Positions 1 to 42,224 of a stretch of DNA of 42,224 nucleotides are shown here, piece by piece. The stretch is from a virus, in IMG/VR virus record IMGVR_UViG_3300033153_006335, positions 1 to 42,224 of that record; one strand, written 5' to 3'. The notes under the pieces were generated by a model, which was given only the letters and a program-made list of their open reading frames with translations, was not told the origin of the DNA and did no database searches. How positions within the stretch are numbered: the stretch's first letter is position 1; every line of letters begins with the position of its first letter. A program made the translations under genes and the position numbers.

Positions 1-64
1 CAATAGTGGTCTAAGTTCCTCTACTCACCCTGAGTTTAAACAACAAGAGTTACTTGATATAATT
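1..64. repeat. Terminal direct repeat, left copy
   Basis: Bases 1-64 are identical to bases 42161-42224. The repeat lies inside an open reading frame that continues in frame across the join. The simplest reading is a circular assembly left with a 64-base overlap; it is too short and too gene-internal to look like a functional packaging repeat. Coordinates near the ends should be read as continuous. Confidence 0.95.
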
Positions 65-301
65 CACAATGCATATTGTTCCGTGGTTAGGGTTAAAAAC
101 GGTCACTTAGTTGAGTGGTGGATAAGTACAGAGGATGGAATGAGTAGGAGTTTTGACGCTTATTATGATGAGTTCCCATATGATAGTACTGATGTATTTT
201 TCATAGGTACAGGCATAGGCGACTCATGTAATAGTAAGAAACTTAAGAAAGAATACGAAACTAAAATGAAGGAATGGGGGATAAAGCCCTATGGTTGTTA
301 A
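1..301 (+). CDS. Cassette protein crossing the circular join (3' part)
   Basis: This is the C-terminal part of a gene that starts with ATG at 42060, behind a GGAG ribosome site, and runs through the 64-base overlap without a stop. The frame before the GTG at 83 is fully open back to base 2, so that GTG is not the real start. The whole protein is about 133 residues. I do not recognise the family; it is acidic, rich in Tyr/Ser/Asp and shows no membrane segment. Its stop TAA (299-301) forms the first three bases of the hairpin element at 299, as ORF ends do in integron cassettes. It lies between hairpins 41988 and 299, making a cassette of about 471 bp. Confidence 0.85.
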   Translation, partial: NSGLSSSTHPEFKQQELLDIIHNAYCSVVRVKNGHLVEWWISTEDGMSRSFDAYYDEFPYDSTDVFFIGTGIGDSCNSKKLKKEYETKMKEWGIKPYGC

Positions 302-345
302 CGGGATAGAACCACAAGCCGTTTATGGCTGGTAGTGCAGTGTTA
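299..345 (+). repeat. attC-like hairpin element A1
   Basis: A 47-nt element running from TAAC (299-302) to GTTA (342-345). These ends can pair. After a 6-nt left spacer and a 3-nt right spacer lies a 12-position stem in which 9 positions pair and positions 2, 5 and 8 do not, capped by a 6-nt loop. The same fold and the same mismatch positions recur at 4141 and 41988. The stop codon of the upstream gene overlaps TAAC, and the next gene starts 38 nt after GTTA. The arrangement resembles integron attC sites (R''/R' and L''/L' boxes). No hidden Markov or covariance search could be run here. Confidence 0.6.
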
Positions 346-383: not shown

Positions 384-611
384 ATGAAAAAAGCAGAATA
401 CAAACAAACAAATAATAAGGTGGTTTACCCAAGAAACGAATGGAAGTGTGAATGTGGGTTTATATTTGTATTGATGGAGGGCTTTAACCCTGATTGGAAT
501 AGCTCTGAATATGGGGCAACAGTTATTCCAGACGGCAAATGTATGAAGTGTAAGGGTATGATTTTTGTTGATACTAATAGCATTAAAGACACTAGATCAT
601 TCAAACGATAA
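384..611 (+). CDS. Small zinc-ribbon-like cassette protein
   Basis: A 75-residue protein. It starts at ATG 384, 38 nt after hairpin A1, with GAGGA as ribosome site. Two cysteine pairs are visible: CEC near residue 23 and CMKC near residue 53. This suggests a Cys4 zinc ribbon of the kind seen in small phage proteins, but no catalytic signature is present. The stop directly abuts the inverted element at 612, so the gene is bracketed by an A element upstream and a B element downstream, like the genes at 4224 and 8851. Function unknown. Confidence 0.75.
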   Translation: MKKAEYKQTNNKVVYPRNEWKCECGFIFVLMEGFNPDWNSSEYGATVIPDGKCMKCKGMIFVDTNSIKDTRSFKR

Positions 612-2182: not shown

Positions 2183-2911
2183 ATGAGTAAAAACAGATAT
2201 GTAAACACTAGTTTCTGGACTGATCCATATATTGAGAATTTAGATCCTAGTGAAAAGTTGATATTTTTATTTTTATTAACCAATCCGTTGACTAATATTT
2301 CAGGCGTTTACGAGGTCTCAATTAAAAGAATTGCATACGATACTGGATTTGATAAAGATATGATTTTAAAGATTTTAGAAAGGTTTGAAAAGGATGAAAA
2401 AGTGTATTATTTTGGTGGTTTTATTATATTACCTAATTTCATAAAACACCAATCTCTAAATTCTAATGTCAAAAAAGGAATTATTGCTAATTTAGATAAT
2501 ATTCCCGACTTAGTAAAGGCTTCGAAAGGCTTTCAAAGGCTTTCAAAGGCTTTGAAATACTTTAACTTAACTTTAACTAAACCTAACTTAACTAAACTAA
2601 AACCTAAGTTAAAGATTAAAAAAGAAATACCCAGCTCCACTTTTTCTCAAAATATTTCTGAAACTACGGAACTATTTAAAACAGTACTAACAAGTTTAAG
2701 AGAAAAATATCCAGATACATATGATTTTAAAATAAATGTAGATAGGTTTAATGGAGAAGTTGCAAAGTTTCAGGAATGGGGAGAAAAAAACGAATGGACT
2801 AGAAAGGAAGGTAAAAAGCAAGTTCCAATCAAAGATATGAAGGCAACTGTTAGAGCTTGGCTGCAAAGAGAAATGGAGAAATTAAAAACAAAACCTTGGG
2901 AAATAGAATAA
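2183..2911 (+). CDS. DnaD-like phage replication initiator / replisome organiser
   Basis: A 242-residue protein. The N-terminus (RYVNTSFWTDPYIENL, then a short helical domain to about residue 90) has the appearance of the winged-helix domain of phage replisome organisers. The middle is Lys/Leu-rich and low in complexity. The C-terminal 90 residues are helical and end in a Trp/Arg-rich segment (MKATVRAWLQREM). ATG directly follows the upstream stop. The gene carries four tandem 10-bp iterons internally, like lambda O, which supports an origin-binding role. The family assignment is by appearance. Confidence 0.6.
   Translation: MSKNRYVNTSFWTDPYIENLDPSEKLIFLFLLTNPLTNISGVYEVSIKRIAYDTGFDKDMILKILERFEKDEKVYYFGGFIILPNFIKHQSLNSNVKKGIIANLDNIPDLVKASKGFQRLSKALKYFNLTLTKPNLTKLKPKLKIKKEIPSSTFSQNISETTELFKTVLTSLREKYPDTYDFKINVDRFNGEVAKFQEWGEKNEWTRKEGKKQVPIKDMKATVRAWLQREMEKLKTKPWEIE
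2515..2630 (+). other. Candidate replication origin: four 10-bp iterons plus AT-rich stretch
   Basis: Inside the replication gene, AAAGGCTTYS repeats four times with exactly 10-bp spacing (2515, 2525, 2535, 2545). An AT-rich stretch to about 2630 follows, with repeated TTAACT/CTAAAC blocks. A 10-bp period is not a multiple of three, so the repeat does not appear in the protein, and selection must act on the DNA. Iterons beside an AT-rich unwinding stretch inside the initiator gene are the arrangement of lambda-type origins. Confidence 0.6.
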
Positions 2912-3105
2912 TGATGTACGACCTAGAAGCTGTAACAAGATTATGTAAAAAATGTAATAAAAATGACTGTATATACTATTCAGATTATTTTAACAAAACT
3001 AGAGCTTATAAGGTTATCTGGTTTAAAGATGGGCATGCGGTTTGTGATAAATTTATTAAAATACAGAAATTAGTTGAAATAGATCAAAGTGAAGTTTTAT
3101 TTTAG
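2911..3105 (+). CDS. Small Cys-rich protein
   Basis: 64 residues. ATG 2911 overlaps the upstream stop (TAATG), so translation is probably coupled. An in-frame start further up would lie inside the replication gene and is unlikely. CKKCNKNDC at residues 11-19 and a Cys near residue 46 could bind a metal. Function unknown; it belongs to the replication operon. Confidence 0.7.
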   Translation: MMYDLEAVTRLCKKCNKNDCIYYSDYFNKTRAYKVIWFKDGHAVCDKFIKIQKLVEIDQSEVLF

Positions 3106-3115
3106 GAATTTTTTT

Positions 3116-3349
3116 ATGAAAAAAGAAGTTAAAAAAGAAAGAAAAAAAGTTGAGCAGGTTAATTGTAATAAATGCCACACTCCTAAATGGGCTAGAATAC
3201 AATGCGAGAAGCCGTATATTGATGAAATAGTACATGCTTTATGCAAATGCAAGCAAATGGAGTTTGACAGGAATACAGTAGCTATTGAAAAGAAAAACAA
3301 AGATAGGTTTTTTGCGAAAGTAAAAGAAACAAATAGTAAAACTATGTAA
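3116..3349 (+). CDS. Small basic zinc-binding protein
   Basis: 77 residues from ATG 3116, with AGGA ribosome site about 8 nt upstream. The N-terminus is Lys/Glu-rich. CNKC near residue 17 and CKCK near residue 43, with a further Cys at about residue 29, look like a degenerate zinc ribbon. It follows the previous gene by 10 nt. No function can be assigned. Confidence 0.7.
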   Translation: MKKEVKKERKKVEQVNCNKCHTPKWARIQCEKPYIDEIVHALCKCKQMEFDRNTVAIEKKNKDRFFAKVKETNSKTM

Positions 3350-3370
3350 TTAAAAGTAAAGGAGAACAAC

Positions 3371-3568
3371 ATGAACAAGGAAGATATGGTAAGTATAGCA
3401 AGTTATGCTATTATGAAAAATATGGATTATGAAACTTTGTATTATTGTGATGATATGTATGGAAAAGAAAAGTACTCCGATGATGTATGGGAATATGTTC
3501 GGGAGTGTAAAGAAATAGGAAATGTAGCTTTTAAAGAAAAATATAAAGGAATAAAATTATATATTTAA
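3371..3568 (+). CDS. Small acidic protein, possibly truncated by a frameshift
   Basis: 65 residues from ATG 3371 with GGAG ribosome site. The sequence is rich in Tyr, Asp and Glu and shows no known motif. Just after its stop another frame stays open to 3653 without any start codon and reads like a continuation (FNKCDSFNEALKKAENFIK). A single-base indel near 3562 would restore one gene of about 94 residues. Either the phage gene has decayed or the assembly has an indel. Confidence 0.6.
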   Translation: MNKEDMVSIASYAIMKNMDYETLYYCDDMYGKEKYSDDVWEYVRECKEIGNVAFKEKYKGIKLYI

Positions 3569-3653
3569 TAAGTGTGATAGTTTTAATGAAGCATTAAAGA
3601 AAGCAGAAAATTTTATTAAAGATAATAATTTGCAAAATCTTGTAGAGTTGTAA
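3555..3653 (+). pseudogene. Frame-shifted 3' remnant of the preceding gene
   Basis: An open frame from 3555 to the TAA at 3651-3653 encodes helical, clearly protein-like sequence (NEALKKAENFIKDNNLQN) but has no ATG, GTG or TTG start and no ribosome site. It begins where the gene at 3371 ends. Most likely it is the detached C-terminus of that gene. Confidence 0.45.
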
Positions 3654-3713
3654 AAATAGTTAACCAAATAACCTTTAAAGTTGATTTTAAAAGTAAAATA
3701 GGAGTGTGGAAGG

Positions 3714-3938
3714 ATGAAAGATTATAAGCATTTTAATGGAAGAAGTTGTATACAATTATGGTAAGGAGAATTTTATTCAAGAAAACAATGCAAGAAGTTC
3801 ATAAAAAACAGACTTAAGAAATTTGGATATATAAGAATAAAAAGTGTAGAAAAAATACCATTTCCAGAATTGGGAGTAATGGTGGAAATTAATAAATTAA
3901 ATAAGACTGCTGAAATTGTGAGTGGGCTTCCATTTTAA
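3714..3938 (+). pseudogene. Small gene interrupted by an in-frame TAA
   Basis: ATG 3714, with a GGA-rich ribosome site, opens a 75-codon frame ending at 3938. Codon 17 (3762-3764) is TAA. Both sides read as ordinary protein: a 16-residue head, then a basic 57-residue tail (SRKQCKKFIKNRLKKFGYIR and onward). Other genes in this window end in TAA, so a recoded stop is unlikely. The gene appears inactivated by a point change. Confidence 0.5.
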
Positions 3939-3977
3939 AACTAAATTTTATAAAGAAATGAGTAAGGGAGTGGGAAA

Positions 3978-4115
3978 ATGAAACTACACCAAAGAAGCCC
4001 ATACCACAAAATAACATCTAAAAGCAGTCAAGTAATAGTTAAATTTTTCATATCTCTTCTGGTGATTGCTGTTTTTTGTGTACTTGTTATTGATATTTTA
4101 AATTTGGAAGGGTAA
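3978..4115 (+). CDS. Small single-pass membrane protein, 45 aa
   Basis: ATG 3978 follows GGGAGTGGGAAA. The first 24 residues are basic and polar, then comes one hydrophobic segment of about 19 residues (FISLLVIAVFCVLVIDI), then a short tail. This is typical of phage single-pass inner membrane peptides. It ends 25 nt before hairpin A2. Function unknown. Confidence 0.6.
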   Translation: MKLHQRSPYHKITSKSSQVIVKFFISLLVIAVFCVLVIDILNLEG

Positions 4116-4140: not shown

Positions 4141-4189
4141 TAACGGATCAGAACCACAAGCCGTTTCAATGGCTGGTAGTGCATTGTTA
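4141..4189 (+). repeat. attC-like hairpin element A2
   Basis: 49 nt from TAAC (4141) to GTTA (4186-4189), extendable to ATAAC/GTTAT. The inner 12-position stem pairs 4151-4162 with 4171-4182, with mismatches only at positions 2, 5 and 8, and an 8-nt loop (GTTTCAAT). It is nearly identical to A1, A3 and A4. The YopX-like gene starts 34 nt downstream. Interpreted as an integron-cassette-type recombination site. Confidence 0.6.
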
Positions 4190-4223: not shown

Positions 4224-4565
4224 ATGGAATTTAGAGTATTTGACAAAACGCTAAAGAAGTATGATGAAGAAAATGATTTTCGCATAAATAAAAATGCAGA
4301 ATTATACAAGAATAATATCTTCTGTAATTGTGACAGATATATTATAGAATATTACCCTGATATAAAAAAAGTAAAAGATAATAATGGCAAAAGTATCTGC
4401 GAGGGTGATGAGTGCATTCTAGAGGGCAATAAGAAATGTTACGTGATGCGAGATTATGGAATGTTTCTTTTTAATTACAATAAGTGTGCAATTTACTTGT
4501 GGAATGTAGATACAGAAAAAGAAGTTGAAATAATTGGAACACGCAACCAAAGTAATATTGTATAA
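4224..4565 (+). CDS. YopX-family protein (cassette cargo)
   Basis: 113 residues from ATG 4224 with GGAGA ribosome site. An in-frame ATG at 4179 lies inside hairpin A2 and is not used in my reading. The start (MEFRVFDKTLKKY) and the motif DNNGKSICEGDEC near residue 53 are hallmarks of YopX proteins, small beta proteins common in phages and prophages with no settled function. The C-terminal EIIGTRNQ also fits. Element A2 lies upstream, and the stop codon is the start of element B2, so this is a one-gene island. Confidence 0.75.
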   Translation: MEFRVFDKTLKKYDEENDFRINKNAELYKNNIFCNCDRYIIEYYPDIKKVKDNNGKSICEGDECILEGNKKCYVMRDYGMFLFNYNKCAIYLWNVDTEKEVEIIGTRNQSNIV

Positions 4566-4609
4566 CGGTCATACTACTGGACATAAGACAATCAATGTAT
4601 CGATGATAA
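4563..4609 (-). repeat. Inverted attC-like element B2
   Basis: TAAC at 4563 overlaps the stop of the YopX-like gene. The stretch CATACTACTGGACAT after it recurs at 9235 and, more weakly, at 612. Read in reverse it gives ATGTCCAGTAGTATGACC then GTTA, comparable to the right half of the A elements (ATGGCTGGTAGTGCATT, GTTA). ACAT/ATGT and TCAT/ATGA can pair. No second GTTA box is seen. Confidence 0.45.
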
Positions 4610-8270: not shown

Positions 8271-8771
8271 ATGTTAGGTGAAAAAATAAAAGGTTTTATA
8301 AATAGTGTATCTGCTGGTGTAAAAACTATAAAAGCAGAAGATGGTACAAAATTTAAACTTACTACATACAAAGTCAAATTAGAATCATCAGAAATTGATT
8401 ATGAAGCAATTGCAAGGTTTAACCCTTCAATTAGTGCTACACTTCTAAATATTCAACCTATGCCATTTAAAAGCGTTAATTTTGGCGACCAATCGGTTAT
8501 GAATACAAATATCGCATTTTACAGAGATGAAGAAGAAGAAGATGCAGAAAAGAGGACTTCTACTCAAGAAATGAATAATGAGTCTGATGCTGAATACGCT
8601 GGAGTTATGATTACTAATTTAACTATAACGGTGAAAGAGAATATTCCATTTTATCAATTCTTACTTGAAATACCGATGCAAGGGGCTAGTGGAAGCTTTC
8701 TTTTTCATGGGTTAAAGTCTAGAATTATGTTCGAGTTTAAAAAAGGCGCTGGTCAAGAGGCTATGTTGTAA
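8271..8771 (+). CDS. Recombination-module protein of unknown function
   Basis: 166 residues, ATG 8271 with GGAG ribosome site. It is beta-rich with an acidic Asp/Glu stretch (DEEEEDAEKR) near residue 90. It lies between DUF2800 and DUF1064 nucleases, where phages often place a single-strand binding or DUF2815-like protein. I do not see a clear OB-fold signature and leave the function open. Its stop TAA forms the first three bases of hairpin element A5, so the element abuts a core phage gene here. Confidence 0.75.
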   Translation: MLGEKIKGFINSVSAGVKTIKAEDGTKFKLTTYKVKLESSEIDYEAIARFNPSISATLLNIQPMPFKSVNFGDQSVMNTNIAFYRDEEEEDAEKRTSTQEMNNESDAEYAGVMITNLTITVKENIPFYQFLLEIPMQGASGSFLFHGLKSRIMFEFKKGAGQEAML

Positions 8772-8817
8772 CGGGATTGTGCAATTAGACGTTTTAATGT
8801 ATAATAACACTGTGTTA
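8769..8817 (+). repeat. attC-like hairpin element A5 (diverged)
   Basis: 49 nt, the same length as A2 and A3, from TAAC (8769) to GTTA (8814-8817). The inner sequence differs strongly from other copies, but the same stem register is kept: GTG/CAC, ATTA/TAAT and AC/GT pair in 9 of 12 positions around an 8-nt loop GTTTTAAT. Conservation of the fold and length while the sequence changes argues for a selected secondary structure. The next gene starts 33 nt downstream. Confidence 0.55.
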
Positions 8818-8850: not shown

Positions 8851-9237
8851 ATGAATAAAGATAGCGTTATAAAACAAATATTAGAAGACCTACCCACAAG
8901 AGATTGCAGGTTTGAGATGACTGACGAAGAGTGGTATGGTTGGTTTGAGGAAGCTTTTGATGCTGGTGAAAAAAAGGTAAAAGATTTATCATCCATGGAA
9001 GAGCTTAACAAGAAAAGGCTGACAGACAAAAGTGGAAATGAAATAATTGCTGGATGCACAATAGCTTATCAGGTAAATACTGTTTATAGGGCAGAATGCA
9101 ATCTTGAATATAGAGATGGTATTTTATGGTTTGTTGATTGGACTGATAAGAATGAAGACATAAGTGCTCTAGATTTTTGGAATGAAGAAACTGATAGTAA
9201 AATTACAAAGATATTAAAATACCCAAATGCACTATAA
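8851..9237 (+). CDS. Cassette protein with a YopX-like motif
   Basis: 128 residues, ATG 8851 with AGAGGA ribosome site. The N-terminal half is helical with a Trp/Glu-rich stretch (DEEWYGWFEEAFDAG), and the C-terminal half is beta-like. LTDKSGNEIIAGCTIAY near residue 57 resembles the D.NG..I..GD turn of YopX-type proteins, but the match is weak. It is bracketed by element A5 upstream and B3 downstream, and its stop is the start of B3. It separates two recombination genes and so looks inserted. Confidence 0.7.
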   Translation: MNKDSVIKQILEDLPTRDCRFEMTDEEWYGWFEEAFDAGEKKVKDLSSMEELNKKRLTDKSGNEIIAGCTIAYQVNTVYRAECNLEYRDGILWFVDWTDKNEDISALDFWNEETDSKITKILKYPNAL

Positions 9238-9280
9238 CACTCATACTACAGGACACACGCCAATAAATGTCGCACTAAAT
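9235..9280 (-). repeat. Inverted attC-like element B3
   Basis: TAAC (9235-9238) overlaps the stop of the upstream gene. TCATACTACAGGACACA and AATAAATGTCGC match elements B2 and B1. Read in reverse it gives GTGTCCTGTAGTATGAGTG then TTA, like the right half of the A elements. GACA/TGTC can form a small stem. It closes the one-gene island 8769-9280. Confidence 0.45.
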
Positions 9281-33701: not shown

Positions 33702-34924
33702 TGGATTACATAACTAAAATAGAGTTTATTTTATTCTCTGAATTTGGAGAAGTAACACCCGTAGTTTCTGAAACTTTCGATACTATTGATGAAGGCTCTG
33801 CATTAAGTATTAAAAGAGTAAGCACAGGATATTCAACTTTAAAGTTCCAATCTAGAACACTAGAGTTTGGTTTAGACTTAGAAGATACTTTTTTTAATAC
33901 ATTTACAAATTCAGAAAATTATATAAATGAAATAAACAGGCACTATATAAAAGCTTACGATGAAAATAATGATTTGTTTTTTACTGGTTTGGTTGGTCGT
34001 AATGATTTTAAAATAAATAATGCAGGAAGTAGAATAGTTATAACTGCAAAAGATTTAACCTCGCTTTTGTATTATATTCAGAAAAATATTGTAACACCTG
34101 TAAATGTATTAGATTTTTCTCTAAAAAGTATAGAAAATTTATATAATTATTATTTAGATTTAGGATTTAAATATTATTTTGGTTCAAGTTTTGTTGCAAC
34201 TAATTATAAAGATCTTGCTTATGACGAAAGTTTTCTAAATATTTCAGAAATAGAATATGCAAATAAGGATTTAACTATTCAAGATTTAATCAATATGTTT
34301 TTCTCTGTAAACTCTCATATTGTAAGATATGAAGAAACTACAAATAAAATAGTTATAGATAATACAAATAGATTTAATTTTGACATTCCAAGTGCAACGA
34401 TACACGCAAATGATGACTATAGAGAAAATGAATCAAATTTAACTATCGGAAAATTGGAAAACGGGAAAATTAGCGATCTTGTGAGTGATGATCCTGGTTA
34501 TTTATTCCAGAAAAATCAAATTATTAGTTTAAATGATGCCAATTACAATCAATTTACCGAAGCTATAAATAAAAGCATCACAACAACAGTTTCAAGAAGA
34601 GTTAATAGCTATACTTTATCAATGAATCAAATTGTAAGATATAAAAACAATTCTTTTTCAATAAAGGGAATAAACCCAAAGCCAAAATATTATGATCTAA
34701 TTTTATGGAACAGTAGAAATCCTATTACAAATCATACGATTTGGGTTGCAACTAACAAGTTTGATAGTATCTCAAATAAACCACAAAATGATATAATAAT
34801 TGTAGCAACAAATGAAATTGATGGAAATAAAGATAATAACAATATAATTATAACCGCTTCAAATGAAATAACAGCAAATGAAGATAATAATAGAAATATA
34901 TTTACATCTACTAATAAATACTAA
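33701..34924 (+). CDS. Distal tail / tail-tip protein with C-terminal repeats
   Basis: 407 residues; ATG 33701 overlaps the tape measure stop. The N-terminal 120 residues form a beta domain with LKFQSRTLEFGLDLEDTFF. The position directly after the tape measure is that of the distal tail protein. The last 60 residues contain three tandem units of about 17 residues of the form I-I-(I/V)-(A/T)-(T/S)-N-E-I-D.N.DNN, which is unusual for this position. Confidence 0.6.
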   Translation: MDYITKIEFILFSEFGEVTPVVSETFDTIDEGSALSIKRVSTGYSTLKFQSRTLEFGLDLEDTFFNTFTNSENYINEINRHYIKAYDENNDLFFTGLVGRNDFKINNAGSRIVITAKDLTSLLYYIQKNIVTPVNVLDFSLKSIENLYNYYLDLGFKYYFGSSFVATNYKDLAYDESFLNISEIEYANKDLTIQDLINMFFSVNSHIVRYEETTNKIVIDNTNRFNFDIPSATIHANDDYRENESNLTIGKLENGKISDLVSDDPGYLFQKNQIISLNDANYNQFTEAINKSITTTVSRRVNSYTLSMNQIVRYKNNSFSIKGINPKPKYYDLILWNSRNPITNHTIWVATNKFDSISNKPQNDIIIVATNEIDGNKDNNNIIITASNEITANEDNNRNIFTSTNKY

Positions 34925-41701: not shown

Positions 41702-41750
41702 TAACGGATCAGAACAACAAGCAGTTTTAATGGCTGGTAGTACATTGTTA
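41702..41750 (+). repeat. attC-like hairpin element A3
   Basis: 49 nt, TAAC (41702) to GTTA (41747-41750). Identical to A2 except at a few positions. Changes at stem positions 2 and 5 fall on sites already unpaired in other copies, while one change (position 12) opens the loop-closing pair. The next ORF starts 26 nt downstream, and element A4 is 286 bp further on, giving a typical cassette length. Confidence 0.6.
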
Positions 41751-41776
41751 GTAACCGTAAACTTTTGAGGGATTAT

Positions 41777-41977
41777 ATGCATATTTATAGAAAGGCTAGA
41801 AAAATACATAACTGCGATGATTGTGGTAGAGAAATTAAAAAAGGTGAGATTTATTTCTATGGAGAATGGAAAGAACCAAAATATGAAAATAATTATGATG
41901 AGTTAAAACAGATTGGTATATATTATGAAAAAATTAAAATTTGTGGTGATTGTGATACTACTTTTAGTGATCAATAA
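41777..41977 (+). CDS. Cassette zinc-finger protein
   Basis: 66 residues from ATG 41777 with GAGGG at good spacing; the upstream in-frame TTG lacks a site. NCDDCGREIKKGEIYFYGEW and later CGDCDTTF form a CX2C...CX2C zinc site. The only gene between hairpins A3 and A4. Function unknown, as for many integron-cassette proteins. Confidence 0.75.
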   Translation: MHIYRKARKIHNCDDCGREIKKGEIYFYGEWKEPKYENNYDELKQIGIYYEKIKICGDCDTTFSDQ

Positions 41978-41987
41978 TTATGGATGC

Positions 41988-42035
41988 TAACGAGTAGAAC
42001 CACAAGTCGTTTTAATGACTGGTAGTGCAATGTTA
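41988..42035 (+). repeat. attC-like hairpin element A4
   Basis: 48 nt, TAAC (41988) to GTTA (42032-42035). In the stem, AGTC pairs with GACT where A1 and A2 have AGCC/GGCT: a two-sided compensatory change that keeps the pair. Mismatches again lie at positions 2, 5 and 8, and the 8-nt loop is GTTTTAAT. The next gene starts 24 nt downstream at 42060. Confidence 0.65.
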
Positions 42036-42059: not shown

Positions 42060-42224
42060 ATGAGGATTATAAATAAATTTACTGAATTATCAATGAATAA
42101 ATGTCGTATAGAAATACATGTATTAGAAAAAATCCCAACATTAGTGGACATTAAAATTTCCAATAGTGGTCTAAGTTCCTCTACTCACCCTGAGTTTAAA
42201 CAACAAGAGTTACTTGATATAATT
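42060..42224 (+). CDS. Cassette protein crossing the circular join (5' part)
   Basis: ATG 42060, with GGAG 7 nt upstream, opens a frame that runs into the terminal repeat and continues in frame at base 2 of this window, ending at 301. The N-terminus is RIINKFTELSMNKCRIEIHV. See the entry at 1-301 for the remainder. Bracketed by hairpins A4 and A1. Confidence 0.85.
   Translation, partial: MRIINKFTELSMNKCRIEIHVLEKIPTLVDIKISNSGLSSSTHPEFKQQELLDII
42161..42224. repeat. Terminal direct repeat, right copy
   Basis: Identical to bases 1-64. Removing one copy closes the genome into a circle of 42,160 bp and restores one uninterrupted gene. Confidence 0.95.

Follow-up and report, generated by a model that had tools for sequence, protein, structure and literature searches.

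attC-like sites between single-gene cassettes of a phage genome and a candidate phage-borne, integron-like cassette system

Described cassette systems and the sites of the phage genome

Phage morons are accessory genes of small size that have been inserted among the conserved genes of a phage. The cassettes of the viral genome examined here (the window, that is, the whole contig of 42,224 nt, with a GC content of 31%) differ from morons in that they stand in tandem and have recombination-type borders which are common to unrelated phages.

attC sites and clusters of attC sites without an integrase (CALINs) have already been published for phages (Qi et al. 2023, PMC9892861). In that study, the sites were predicted with the existing IntegronFinder/HattCI models, and five out of six phage attC sites tested with IntI1 recombined with attI1, including one of the two from Polaribacter phage P12002L (PMC9892861). 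The phage CALINs resemble the window in having attC-like sites between single ORFs and no integrase in the genome, and P12002L carries the same R1 family of sites as the window. By contrast, the parts of that study consulted here report neither a recombinase lacking the IntI-specific segment (the IntI patch), nor complete arrays of jumbo phages, nor the B-type site presented below. In the literature searched, whose coverage excludes preprints and most subscription papers, that study was the only one on integron-like platforms of phages or on jumbo and huge phages with integrons, and a patch-less phage recombinase accompanied by arrays was not reported.

The nearest layout is found in the integrons of Treponema, which have short sites (63–68 nt in the attC of T. 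denticola; PMC3607928). In both Treponema and the phage family, cassettes of one ORF form arrays with short attC ends, and the recombinase lies on the strand of the array. However, the sedentary chromosomal integron of Treponema has an IntI (PMC3607928), whereas the array recombinase of the phages is devoid of the IntI patch. Moreover, the phage sites measure 47–49 nt, their GTTTTAAT loop is conserved and their right spacer has 2–3 nt. Among protein families and PDB entries, the array recombinase matches Xer/XerA best (NF040815, PDB 4a8e), but it scores below the NF040815 cut-off and is associated with cassette arrays instead of a single dif site.

A and B elements of the window

The window contains the phage genes for a terminase, a Mu-type portal, a tape measure, capsid E, a putative recombination exonuclease (phrog_69) and a DnaD-like protein. 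A terminal repeat of 64 nt (1–64 identical to 42161–42224) points to a genome of 42,160 nt that is probably either circular or circularly permuted, and the elements at 41702, 41988, 299 and 619 consequently form one array. The look-up of the terminase, the exonuclease and a protein of the replication region indicated no host. Since a further copy of this phage did not turn up, cassette turnover in the window itself is not directly seen.

The original prediction of five elements of 47–49 nt, running from TAAC to GTTA, was borne out at all five positions. When every TAAC...GTTA pair with a distance of 40–60 nt was scanned for pairing at 12 stem positions, these elements (hereafter A) were the top five of the + strand, with 9, 9, 9, 9 and 8 paired positions. 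Out of 100 Markov-simulated genomes, 72 had no element with nine or more pairs, and the maximum was two per genome. A second repeat (B), absent from that prediction, was located at 619, 4563 and 9235. It has the form TAACnnnnATACTAC...CAATnAATGT and begins with TAAC, with neither a GTTA end nor a stable hairpin. The features are as follows (R1 is the covariance model described in the next section, and its E-values are rough):

41702..41750, + strand: attC-like site A4, which opens array 1 (R1 20.2 bits, E 0.11; repeat D1)
41777..41977, + strand: cassette ORF c1, 66 aa, CxxC-type, no family
41988..42035, + strand: attC-like site A5 (R1 28.0 bits, E 0.0017)
42060..42224, + strand: cassette ORF c2, 133 aa, 5′ part (no phage homologue found)
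1..301, + strand: cassette ORF c2, 3′ part, ending on a TAA stop that belongs to the A1 core
299..345, + strand: attC-like site A1 (R1 16.8 bits, E 0.63; the weakest alone)
384..611, + strand: cassette ORF c3, 75 aa
619..654, + strand: B1, single-core (TAAC) site that closes array 1 on the 3′ side, candidate attI (repeat D3; position; TAACnnnnATACTAC)
4141..4189, + strand: attC-like site A2 (R1 26.0 bits, E 0.0049)
4224..4565, + strand: cassette ORF c4, YopX-like, 113 aa, ending on a TAA stop that belongs to the B2 core
4563..4598, + strand: B2, candidate attI (repeat; position)
8769..8817, + strand: attC-like site A3, with other arms and the same ends and loop (R1 28.7 bits, E 0.0012, the best of the window)
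8851..9237, + strand: cassette ORF c5, 128 aa, whose stop overlaps the B3 core
9235..9270, + strand: B3, candidate attI (repeat; position)

In circular order, array 1 reads A(41702)-c1-A(41988)-c2-A(299)-c3-B1, array 2 A(4141)-c4-B2 and array 3 A(8769)-c5-B3. The three arrays hold three, one and one cassettes, each of a single ORF with attC-like ends, as in an integron array. An A element precedes each of the five small ORFs and a B element closes every array. ORF c2 continues from the 42224 side into 1–301 because 42161–42224 repeats 1–64. ORF c4 matched PF09643 below the cut-off (E 9e-4) and phrog_98 (5e-5). At 299, 8769, 4563 and 9235, the TAAC core shares bases with a stop codon, which in the case of A3 is that of the ORF 8271–8771.

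The position of B is that of the attI-like site in the relatives presented below, and by this analogy each array most likely has, in its B element, the attI-type counterpart to A at its 3′ end. The attI label is drawn from position, as the attI matrix of jumbo phages gives B no notable score (ranks 10, 37 and 50 among the 415 TAAC sites of the window, with no match). This matrix does not pick out B and was set aside as a detector. Its best match in the window, at 34355 on the minus strand, scored 10.0 versus 17–20 for the source sites and lies inside a coding ORF; it was taken as chance. In B, a box ATACTAC is situated four nt after TAAC, and a similar ACTAC adjoins the core in the right arm of A read in reverse.

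All five A sites have the R″ AAC and R′ GTT cores. The motif of the R1 family in the flank after GTTA (positions +7 and +8) is GT in four copies and TG in one. The boxes RYYYAAC/GTTRRRY were not found in the A elements, which have, for example, TGTTAAC, GTGTAAC and GCATAAC on the left and GTTAGCG and GTTATAC on the right; a strict search for these boxes was uninformative even on published phage integrons. In comparison with attC of the IntI type, A also differs in geometry, with a right spacer of 2–3 nt.

Two further claims on the arms were correct in substance and misplaced in labelling. The two-sided change from AGCC/GGCT to AGTC/GACT is real and belongs to the copy at 41988, and the nearly entirely different arms which retain 9 of 12 pairs belong to the copy at 8769; the labels A4 and A5, under which they had been announced, disagree with that prediction's own order of the copies. 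The proposed folding of the bottom strand, carried out as DNA for both strands, placed no single A copy ahead of its shuffled versions (z from −0.85 to +0.55). Energy folding of single copies is uninformative, and the argument for a hairpin rests on comparison and not on energy.

The wider family of sites and its recombinase

Sequence searches with the A arms or with B in viral and genome collections gave no true relative, and the matches inspected were due to chance. A 49-nt site of P12002L, with ends, spacing and loop as in A and different arms, provided the lead for a search of viral contigs with the frame TAACN{16,17}CGTTTNAATGN{12,13}TGTTA. At least 119 viral contig stretches were recovered, with 140 sites among the matches listed, P12002L included. 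The relatives keep TAACG...CGTTTTAATG...TGTTA while the stem varies. Across 37 diverse sites from outside the window, 11 of the 12 stem pairs show changes in both partners, and the covariation score is 0.498 versus no more than 0.162 when the partners are slid.

The covariance model R1 was built solely from these sites, without any sequence of the window. It recovered the five A elements and nothing else up to E=5. The A elements share with the family the TAAC...GTTA ends, the stem of about 12 pairs, the GTTTNAAT loop and the spacing, and three of the five have E<0.005. Their scores range from 16.8 to 28.7 bits versus up to 68.8 in relatives, with A1 and A4 not significant alone. The relatives are strongly paired with one extrahelical T. 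The window copies agree with the family in ends, spacing, loop and flank, but their stems are weaker and not stable alone.

Phage records with family sites are P12002L, LR756500 and LR745206, and R1 matched two phage records, one of 462 kb and one of 635 kb. In P12002L, five full-length sites (30008, 30909, 32223, 38035 and 38879) are located around methyltransferase genes; two attC sites of this phage were tested in the published work. Intervals between sites in the relatives (n=204) have a median of 304 nt, and 142 of them contain an ORF on the array strand, whose stop is the TAA of TAAC in 24 cases. The cargo of the cassettes often resembles DNA methyltransferases by eye (L044, L066, L092, L106, L122, L125, L128, L142 and others). 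Longer attC-like sites of about 120–150 nt, with unchanged ends and larger loops, recur in the arrays of jumbo phages (L020, L039, L046, L023, L135, L138 and L146), and in some of them a small ORF lies inside the loop, e.g., MKDLTHIKRFNESEENLNISDV.

The integron-integrase model matched a tyrosine recombinase of the Xer/IntI superfamily in 9 of the first 20 records, and a further 50 records added five recombinases and one broken copy. In all 12 contigs examined (L133–L139 and L144–L148) the arrays have the structure ORF-site-ORF-site followed by the recombinase, which is located at the 3′ end on the same strand. Directly before it, 11 of the 12 have a one-core attI-like site with the consensus ATTRNNNATAACTAnnwTATAT; in the diverged L148 such a site was not found. 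The T4-type Gp23 capsid gene was above the cut-off in 7 of 13 recombinase contigs versus none of 14 control genomes, and the findings for tail sheath and terminase agree with the phage nature of these contigs. The smaller contigs mostly have no recombinase, as in the window; LR756500 has only a fragment, and LR745206 and P12002L have none.

The conserved residues of tyrosine recombinases are present in the array recombinases, but the IntI-specific insertion between KGRKDR and HxLRH is absent. The integron integrase model matches them at both ends, with a gap at the insertion and a score below the cut-off. The closest solved structures are the XerC-like 4a8e and then IntI4 (2a3v). In the tree, which has few rows and some long branches, the array recombinases stand apart from two IntI. 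A related recombinase (about 47% identity) is encoded at 2043–2708 of plasmid pJAT2044 of Acinetobacter baylyi (L155), where a family-like hairpin ending in CCACTTGTTA lies at about 2840–2890, between the recombinase and tet(X3) (2898–4064). A cassette origin of this resistance gene is possible and is offered as a lead only.

The contigs L133 and L147 are 99.4% identical over 900 nt from the attI-like core and 40% before it. Judged from the two sequences, this is a natural junction, in which one attI-like site is joined to two different cassettes. Segments common to L020/L071, L058/L128, L030/L090 and L060/L126 end within a few nt of GTTA, and several common segments start inside the repeated element itself. 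The latter starts, together with the exonuclease of the window, would suit A elements that serve merely as conserved borders for ordinary homologous recombination of small genes, with no site-specific enzyme. This explanation is highly improbable, as the L133/L147 junction lies at a core of 4–6 nt with one flank unrelated, the arms vary freely while pairing is retained, and the recombinase is adjacent in 12 contigs.

A signal at the RNA level (terminator, processing or translation) at the ends of operon genes was also considered. On the coding strand, the A elements are located at stop codons and upstream of ribosome-binding sites, and canonical attC sites are thought to hold weak terminators (PMC9892861). 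However, the Rfam scan of the window gave nothing above threshold at A and only two sub-threshold matches elsewhere, and neither A nor B has a stable fold. In addition, the TAAC/GTTA ends of the relatives are invariant, the recombinase lies where the array ends and homology is lost from the core onward, which makes an RNA signal very unlikely. The original prediction would have been abandoned if the same hairpins occurred throughout unrelated phages without cassette turnover; the sites do occur across phages, yet with turnover.

A proposed phage-borne cassette system in relation to integrons

No tyrosine recombinase was detected in the six frames of the window and no intI gene is present, in agreement with the expectation of a phage lacking an evident integron integrase. 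A4, A5 and A1 lie within 0.8 kb of the circular genome with no integrase, an arrangement that recalls CALINs, a class defined by the attC models of IntegronFinder/HattCI. The missing recombinase, the conserved stem mismatches and the low model scores could also indicate inert remnants of an older array, recognised by no enzyme now. This is unlikely, because identical mismatches are retained in three or four copies, the arms at 8769 keep 9 of 12 pairs although their sequence differs, and all three arrays follow one regular A/B layout.

Mobilisation of the window sites as classical integron attC by an IntI of the host is quite unlikely as well. P12002L carries five sites of the R1 family, and attC-like sites had been predicted in this phage, one of which recombined with attI1 through IntI1 (PMC9892861). 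On the other hand, the published IntI-type attC loci (L011–L013) gave no R1 match, the spacer geometry and the consensus of the R boxes differ, and the recombinases of the family have no IntI patch.

In conclusion, the A elements very likely belong, as attC-type recombination sites, to an integron-like cassette system borne by phages, with B as candidate attI and a recombinase that would be supplied in trans. The attC reading of the original prediction holds insofar as the sites are attC-like with single-ORF cassettes between them, the phage has no recombinase gene, and in relatives the cassettes form arrays next to a recombinase, with junctions that fall on the core. Its filing as integron attC sites does not, since the geometry differs, RYYYAAC/GTTRRRY is lacking, and the recombinase has no IntI-specific segment and stands apart from IntI. 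As the array recombinase has no IntI patch, the system is integron-like and not a classical integron.

A patch-less tyrosine recombinase of the Xer/IntI superfamily would recognise the folded site and join cassettes at the TAAC/GTTA core. The complete platform of array, attI-like site and recombinase is found in T4-like jumbo phages. The window has the integron-like layout but no recombinase, and the best reading is therefore that it carries cassettes and is served in trans: its A cassettes, folded as single strands, would be exchanged at B by the recombinase of the host or of a co-infecting element, if the sites are active.

Relatives of A are spread across many phages, and the giant T4-like ones have the recombinase; phages therefore appear to own an integron-like system. 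It is likely, though with less confidence than the reading of the A elements, that this platform of cassette exchange is separate from IntI integrons, being complete in jumbo phages and served in trans in small phages whose arrays have attI sites but not the recombinase. Among its cargo are YopX-like proteins and, judged by eye, DNA methyltransferases. Integron searches which require the IntI segment would call such arrays CALINs or miss them. Because the recombinase accompanies attC-like arrays without the IntI-defining segment, the system, if true, would offer an intermediate that links Xer recombinases with IntI and is open to testing. A site-specific machine shuffling single phage genes would also, if true, be a new explanation for part of phage mosaicism.
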